Source: Nitrospiraceae bacterium
GTDB taxonomy: Bacteria; Nitrospirota; Thermodesulfovibrionia; UBA6902
DNA: 50,782 bases
Reading direction: 5' to 3'
Assembly: GCA_003599505.1 (NCBI GenBank)
Contig: QZKO01000027.1
Location: forward strand, 1-50,782
The first letter of the stretch is position 1. Each line of letters starts with the position of its first letter. The translations under genes and the position numbers were made by a program. This document shows positions 40,791 to 42,178 of this stretch, piece after piece. Under the pieces are notes generated by a model. The model saw only the letters and a list, made by a program, of their open reading frames with translations, had not been told where the DNA came from and did no database searches.

Positions 40791-40824
40791 AAAAGGGCTT
40801 TATCCGGATCACCGGATAAAGCCC
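40791..40824 (-). terminator. Intrinsic terminator after the multiheme cytochrome gene
   Basis: A perfect 13-bp stem GGGCTTTATCCGG/CCGGATAAAGCCC (40795-40807 with 40812-40824) with a 4-base loop is followed on the minus strand by TTTT. It ends the cytochrome transcript 28 bp after its second stop, which supports transcription through the in-frame TGA. Confidence 0.9.
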
Positions 40825-40851
40825 TCGAATCAATAGACTTGTCTGAACGGA

Positions 40852-42087
40852 TTAAAACTCTACCTTTTTACTGACCTTTTTCCAGTCTGCCGTATCGCCT
40901 TCCTCATAAATGAATTTGTACGTGGCTTCGACAGTAGCGGATTTCGTATCAGCCTTCAGAGGCACTACGAATGTAAGAGAATCCGTCTTAAGGGGTTCAA
41001 GCCCGAGATTTATATGCGTCATCGCGGTCAGGTCCCAGTCGTTAAAGCCCATCCATCCTTCCTTGTTTGAAGGCAGATGAAGGTCATAGACTTCATAATT
41101 CTTTGTTTCTGAAAATAAAACCTTGCCGTCCTGGTCTTTCACGGTCACTTCCAGTGCCGCTTTGGGGATGAATACTCAGCCGTGCGGCAGGTCGTGAGGA
41201 CTGTTGTTTTTCAGTTGCACATTCATGACTACAGCGGGCATCATTATGTCCTTCAGATGATCAAAATGACGGGTAGGAGTGGCGGTTAATGTAAGGTCGA
41301 TAGCGGTTGCCGCGAACTCCTTTTCATAGATTCCGGGGAACCTGTGGCTTTCGCCGCCTTTACCCTTCATATGGCAATCCTGGCAGGTCTGCTTGCCGCC
41401 GTGCGCTATATAATGTTCCTGGTAAACCGACCACTGCGTCGGACACTCCTTGGAAGACAGACCCGGCGGGCAGCCGTGGTGGCATGCCATGCAGAACTCG
41501 GACTTCTTCATGTTTTCCGACTTTACGGTATTAAAACCGAAATCTTTATGAGGGGGGTTCTTCGCGTCTCCGGGCCCGAAAATCGTGTTCGGTTCCGGCG
41601 GAGCGGGAGGATGGCCTTCTACAAGTCCCCCCGGCGTTTTGACGCCGTGACATGTAATGCAGTTGATATCGAGCTTTGAGAGCTCTTTTAATGCAGCTTC
41701 CTTTTTGGCCGCGTCTTTTTCATCCGCGGCTGTCACCACTAATCCCGCAATCTGCACCGCGAGCTCGTCAGAAGCGTTCAGAGCGGCAGGCGCGTGACAC
41801 ATGAGGCACATATCTCTCAGCATGGTCCTCTTTACCTCGGGGTTTTTATTTTTATCTACCCCTTTCAATATAAAGGTCCTGAAGGTCCTGAGGGAACGCG
41901 GATCGGTTATCGATTTGGCATGCCATGATTTCGACCAGTTTTCGTGAATATCAGTATGGCATCCAATACACTGACTTGAATCTGTCGACGCGACTATCTC
42001 ATCGATCGTGTTGGCCTTTTGGGCGGAAGCCGTCAAAGGCGCCGCTATAAAGACCGCAAACAGAAGCATTACAAACAAATGTTTCAT
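40852..42087 (-). CDS. Five-heme cytochrome c, probable selenoprotein (in-frame TGA), ExtKL-like
   Basis: Read through a TGA at 41176-41178, the frame gives 411 residues. It has a signal peptide (residues 1-22) and five CxxCH heme sites (40-44, 94-98, 143-147, 199-203, 235-239). Residue 304 would be selenocysteine in the context HDLPHG-Sec-VFIPKAALEV, followed by a 107-residue beta domain. Without readthrough, the frame on either side stays open with no frameshift, the second part lacks a ribosome-binding site, and one terminator follows both. Geobacter cytochromes of the ExtKL type are, from memory, reported selenoproteins of similar layout. No ext partner genes are near. Confidence 0.8.
41142..41178 (-). 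promoter_or_regulatory. Candidate bacterial SECIS element
   Basis: Directly after the TGA, the mRNA can form GCGGCAC-UGGAA-GUG(A)CCGU, a seven-pair stem with one bulged A (a terminal G-U included) and an apical loop at +23 to +27 from the UGA. The loop has GG at its second and third positions. Distance and the early-loop G fit the general rules for bacterial SECIS hairpins. Confidence 0.6.
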
Positions 42088-42178
42088 AAAATCCTCCTTT
42101 CATTTTTTGTTTTTTCAAGTTTCAACTTGATATTCAAAACGGATGATTCCGGGGAACTGATTGATACAAAAGTTAACC

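Follow-up and report, generated by a model that had tools for sequence, protein, structure and literature searches.

An ExtKL-type five-heme cytochrome selenoprotein gene in the Thermodesulfovibrionales branch of Nitrospirota

Results

The window analysed here is a stretch of 50,782 nucleotides from the draft genome of a Nitrospiraceae bacterium (GCA_003599505.1, contig QZKO01000027.1), in which a cytochrome gene on the minus strand lies between a tRNA-Ser gene and a run of signalling genes (Table 1). The frame opens with an ATG at 42087, runs for 303 codons to a TGA (41178-41176), which is its single in-frame stop, and continues unshifted for another 107 codons to a TAA (40854-40852). An export-type signal opens the product, which carries five CXXCH motifs, starting at C40, C94, C143, C199 and C235, all of which lie upstream of the TGA. 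The part ahead of the UGA is preceded by a strong ribosome-binding site, and no Shine-Dalgarno sequence was seen at the two in-frame GTG codons that are the sole starts within the first 30 codons past the TGA. One strong terminator, with a 15-pair stem (40826-40793, minus strand), was found, placed after the post-UGA part only. In all of these points (the lengths of the two unshifted parts, the five hemes, the second part without its own ribosome-binding site and the terminator behind that part only) the original prediction, which had proposed a selenocysteine at the TGA, was borne out.

Table 1. Features of the cytochrome locus, in positions of the window
Feature	Positions	Strand	Basis
ExtKL-type five-heme cytochrome selenoprotein gene, 411 residues, Sec304	40852..42087, including stop TAA	minus	translation with TGA = U; NF040886 match
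Upstream part, ending ahead of the UGA, with a signal peptide-like N-terminus, the five heme-binding CXXCH sites and the strands that begin the C-terminal beta domain	41179..42087	minus	translation; AlphaFold model
TGA codon 304, almost certainly read as selenocysteine	41176..41178	minus	codons of the homologous column; Sec325 of PDB 9wt8 MccSep
Part after the UGA, of 107 codons and TAA, with the strands that complete the C-terminal beta domain	40852..41175	minus	purifying selection; AlphaFold strands
bSECIS stem-loop GCGGCACUGGAAGUGACCGU, 8 pairs, one bulged A, loop GGA	41141..41160	minus	folding, conservation, published constraints
Intrinsic terminator after the post-UGA part	40793..40826	minus	z = -6.1
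Ribosome-binding site region, AAAGGAGGATTTT ahead of ATG	42088..42104	minus	

An open frame past the TGA is not decisive on its own, since 4 of the 35 genes in the window have at least 107 open codons beyond their true stop and TGA is the normal stop in 12 of the 35. The latter count also led us to reject UGA as a general sense codon. The case for selenocysteine is made by comparison with relatives, and not by the open frame or by a lone hairpin.

The 411-residue read-through product matched the NCBIfam model NF040886, 'multiheme c-type cytochrome (seleno)protein ExtKL', with 302.7 bits over model positions 13-422 of 423, a full-length match that spans the UGA and exceeds the equivalog cut-off of 250 bits. 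Sec (or Cys) stands in the HxxPxG-[U/C] motif expected of ExtKL, and the five CXXCH sites were invariant in an alignment of 24 members. The best sequence match in the PDB was MccSep, a 'multiheme cytochrome c selenoprotein' of solved structure (9wt8/9wt9 and related entries, E ~1e-37), in which Sec325 of 9wt8 aligns with residue 304. MccSep is homologous over residues 18-338, with Sec at the aligned column, although the alignment covers only part of its 450-residue chain. The literature searched contained no paper on MccSep and none on selenoproteins of Thermodesulfovibrionales.

The family was found above the cut-off in 47 of the 61 genomes surveyed, mostly with one TGA. In a tree of the 24 members the window protein fell, with full support, in a clade of 15 from Thermodesulfovibrionales, apart from the Geobacter-like IPDG-U forms; most of the motifs in this clade read P[HNY]G-U-[VIMG][FY], and the clade also includes Cys forms. 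The nearest named relatives are Nitrospirota metagenome-assembled genomes (MAGs), several of them from groundwater or the deep subsurface according to their titles. Five genomes (G003, G006, G008, G018 and G032) carry a TGA form together with a stop-free form, which has Cys where it was read. One ExtKL-type copy (L036, G008:C9) is split over two overlapping matches and has an extra TAA; it is apparently a decaying paralog.

Apart from the window itself, 44 homologous loci have TGA at the column of residue 304, among which a few genomes may be counted twice through their presence in two collections; three loci have TGC or TGT (Cys) there. The comparison with ExtKL-type cytochromes that had been suggested as a check thus gave only U or C throughout the family, and a conserved residue other than these, which had been named as grounds for dismissing the idea, was seen only outside it, in two far relatives (~24% identity) with Ser at this column. 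Judging from its substitution pattern (dN/dS ~0.05-0.15), the post-TGA part is under purifying selection: dN/dS was 0.05-0.12 between the window and the five close relatives with estimable dS, dS being near saturation for more distant relatives. With the column U or C family-wide and aligned with the Sec of MccSep, the comparison of sequences indicates that UGA 304 is almost certainly read as selenocysteine.

The hairpin stem begins 15 nt past the UGA and has eight pairs and one bulge, with 23 nt between the UGA and the GGA loop; a hairpin with an early GG in its loop had been predicted correctly, and its stated seven pairs and 22-base distance are corrected here. Published limits for bacterial SECIS elements (bSECIS; PMC13188914) are a loop of 3-9 nt with a G within its first two positions, a stem of 4-16 pairs, 16-37 nt from UGA to loop and an MFE of -7.5 or below; the element lies within them, as had been claimed, with its loop of 3 nt and with -8.3 kcal/mol for the isolated hairpin. 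A hairpin in one sequence alone is weak evidence for a SECIS: some bSECIS-like hairpin can be formed at 19% of the codon positions of neighbouring genes, and only at 0.7% is it one with at least eight pairs and a GG loop. Folding energy was rejected as stand-alone evidence, with a z of -0.03 against shuffles of the single sequence. Among relatives, every one of the 37 distinct UGA forms retained a stem-loop with GG in the loop (mean -8.8 kcal/mol), and in the three Cys forms it was lost, with basal pairs broken and -3.2 kcal/mol. Within the hairpin, the codons for Leu (CTG), Val (GTG) and Thr (ACC) are invariant among the 21 PHG-type UGA forms, in which all four codons are used for the Pro directly ahead of the hairpin; at the hairpin itself, protein constraint overlaps RNA constraint.

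A search for selA, selB, selC and selD, another check proposed with the original prediction, gave a divided answer in the window's own assembly, a 95% complete draft of 2.64 Mb in 87 contigs. An intact selB is present (365 bits, 638 residues), as is an intact selD (G000:C11:24303-25217, L016) whose sole in-frame TGA falls at GG-U-AAK, the usual Sec/Cys position. This selD adds a second selenoprotein gene to the genome. Neither of two models matched a selA in the assembly, and no tRNA-Sec reached the cut-off with RF01852. A relaxed-pattern search was positive in both congener controls and found none in this genome; another DNA pattern for tRNA-Sec had zero matches and was uninformative. Absence of selB and selC had been held to count against a selenoprotein; in the draft this applies to selC, with selB present, and all nine congeners have both selA, which was found in 56 of the 61 surveyed genomes, and a tRNA-Sec over the cut-off. 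Two genomes of the same family as that of the window (G011 and G024) are also without selA.

Contigs that happen to end where the two genes usually lie do not explain the gap in the assembly, as other sequence is found at those places. In six relatives inspected selA lies ahead of selB, in one of them with a gene-sized gap between the two; here proS is directly upstream of selB (G000:C18, L013:10364-13992) and ends 20 bases before it. Two congeners have tRNA-Sec behind a gene (~89% identical DNA) that is here followed by a tRNA-Arg(CCT), with no tRNA-Sec at that place (G000:C44, L151:9580-10988). As the usual places of both genes are filled by other sequence, selA and tRNA-Sec are either in the unassembled part of the genome or lost. 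In a Nitrospirae lineage, tRNA-Sec has been reported to overlap selB (PMC8124441); such an overlap was looked for and not seen here. The contig with selB also carries a DUF3800-V RNA match (L013:2396-2491; 43.5 bits, cut-off 37.4). Separately, six relatives with selA (G010, G013, G020, G022, G023 and G033) showed no clear canonical tRNA-Sec, having none over the cut-off or only borderline matches of ~48 bits, among them G010, rated 100% complete, and the single-contig genomes G022, G023 and G033; a divergent tRNA-Sec is possible in these.

As for its surroundings, the cytochrome gene stands alone. Its neighbours are serS, an RNA cyclase gene and the signalling genes, and no extHIJKLMNOPQS-like cluster is found at the window locus, in line with the earlier remark that the context differs from that of Geobacter; the ext cluster is a Geobacter trait that lies outside the NF040886 family model. 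No conserved operon partner emerged, as several of the window neighbours are common to one relative only (L067) and other flanks differ. One relative has a sulphur transport gene of the YeeE/YedE type behind the cytochrome (L071:6500-7912), which was not seen beside the others examined.

Discussion

The window gene is a real selenoprotein gene and a further member, in a distinct branch, of the ExtKL family, which was already catalogued among prokaryotic selenoproteins in a 2026 review (PMC13188914). It shares its five hemes, its single Sec within the C-terminal third and its full-length model match with Geobacter sulfurreducens ExtKL (GSU2937-2936), which was reported as a putative selenoprotein with five hemes (PMC5877670). 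It differs in its motif, PHG-U-VFIP as against IPDG-U-PS in Geobacter, in its score against NF040886, ~302 bits as against >500 for the best IPDG-U relatives, and in the lack of adjoining extHIJ/MNOPQS genes. We consider it very probable that it encodes a Thermodesulfovibrionales member of the ExtKL/MccSep type, an exported five-heme cytochrome in which UGA 304 is read as Sec through the downstream SECIS and SelB.

A lone in-frame stop is typical of a sequencing error or of a point-mutated pseudogene codon, and such an origin of the TGA would have a negligible probability here, as the SECIS is conserved and the TGA recurs at the identical column in 44 loci of independent assemblies from several phyla, which rules it out. 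More consideration is due to a recent loss of selA and selC, after which the UGA would now be a plain stop and the only product a 303-residue five-heme protein without a complete beta domain. Such a loss would account for a 95% complete assembly from which both genes are absent and for selB and selC loci that are rearranged relative to the congeners. Nonetheless it seems very unlikely, since the low post-UGA dN/dS comes from comparisons in which the window sequence itself is one partner, and since the SECIS, the 638-residue selB and the TGA-bearing selD are all intact, which argues for present use; furthermore, MAGs often miss genes, and selA is likewise missing from the two genomes of the same family.

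It could also be supposed that the genome has kept selB, the SECIS-bearing UGA genes and selD, has lost selA and the canonical tRNA-Sec, and decodes UGA by another route, which may, for example, be a UCA-anticodon tRNA charged with cysteine and delivered by SelB; we regard a scenario of this kind as improbable to much the same degree as a plain loss. In its specific form, the UGA would be read as Cys or another amino acid by a UCA-anticodon tRNA, such as a selC*-type tRNA-Cys, with SelB reusing the SECIS. The presence of selB without selA and the replacement of Sec by Cys in three homologs would suit this, as would reports of selC* tRNA-Cys, some with a UCA anticodon, from several phyla including Nitrospirae (PMC7609411). 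No UCA-anticodon tRNA was found in the window's own genome, however, whether with RF01852, by pattern search or with ARAGORN on the loci inspected, and selD, which serves selenium use, has been retained, so that this version appears more doubtful still. Selenocysteine thus remains the preferred reading, and the clean conservation of the UGA genes favours a selA and tRNA-Sec in the unassembled part of the genome over their loss. We infer that both genes exist in that ~5%, which is far more likely than loss; the missing selA and selC are the single remaining point that merits a specialist's attention.

In the AlphaFold model (pLDDT 84, pTM 0.81) the heme part is mostly helical, and the C-terminal beta domain is begun by strands at 263-294 and completed by strands at 309-410. 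As residue 304 has strands on either side, termination at the UGA would yield only half of this domain. Structurally, the closest match was the pentaheme cytochrome c552 of Thermochromatium tepidum (PDB 5ze8; TM ~0.6 over hemes and beta domain), whose layout of hemes and beta domain resembles the model, but which has only 19% identity and Ala where the window protein has Sec. The heme part also gave a weak profile match to domains II/IV of MtrC/MtrF (PF22113; 32.6 bits, cut-off 30), which are not full-length relatives; to our knowledge no Sec is known in the MtrC/MtrF family.

Taken together, these features suggest that UGA 304 would be read under the direction of the stem-loop just downstream, with Sec delivered by SelB, and that the cytochrome would be exported to the periplasm. 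The Sec would then lie on a loop between strands of the beta domain, where the five-heme chain might feed electrons to a reactive, redox-active selenol. Periplasmic electron transfer of this kind is the likely mechanism, and its role is probably the reduction of an oxyanion or other small oxidant. A chalcogen oxyanion is a possible substrate by analogy with Geobacter, as the porin ExtI of the G. sulfurreducens ext cluster was linked to selenite and tellurite reduction (PMC5877670); the selenate/tellurite role is an extrapolation from that cluster.

An ExtKL-type selenoprotein in this genome is well supported yet largely expected. Standard gene calling ends the gene at the UGA, so that only a shortened cytochrome would be annotated. 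Read through, the gene extends a family of selenoprotein cytochromes, described for the most part in Geobacter, by a distinct and well-supported branch in Nitrospirota, and the natural Sec and Cys forms, sometimes in one genome, offer a comparison for the role of selenium beside a five-heme wire.
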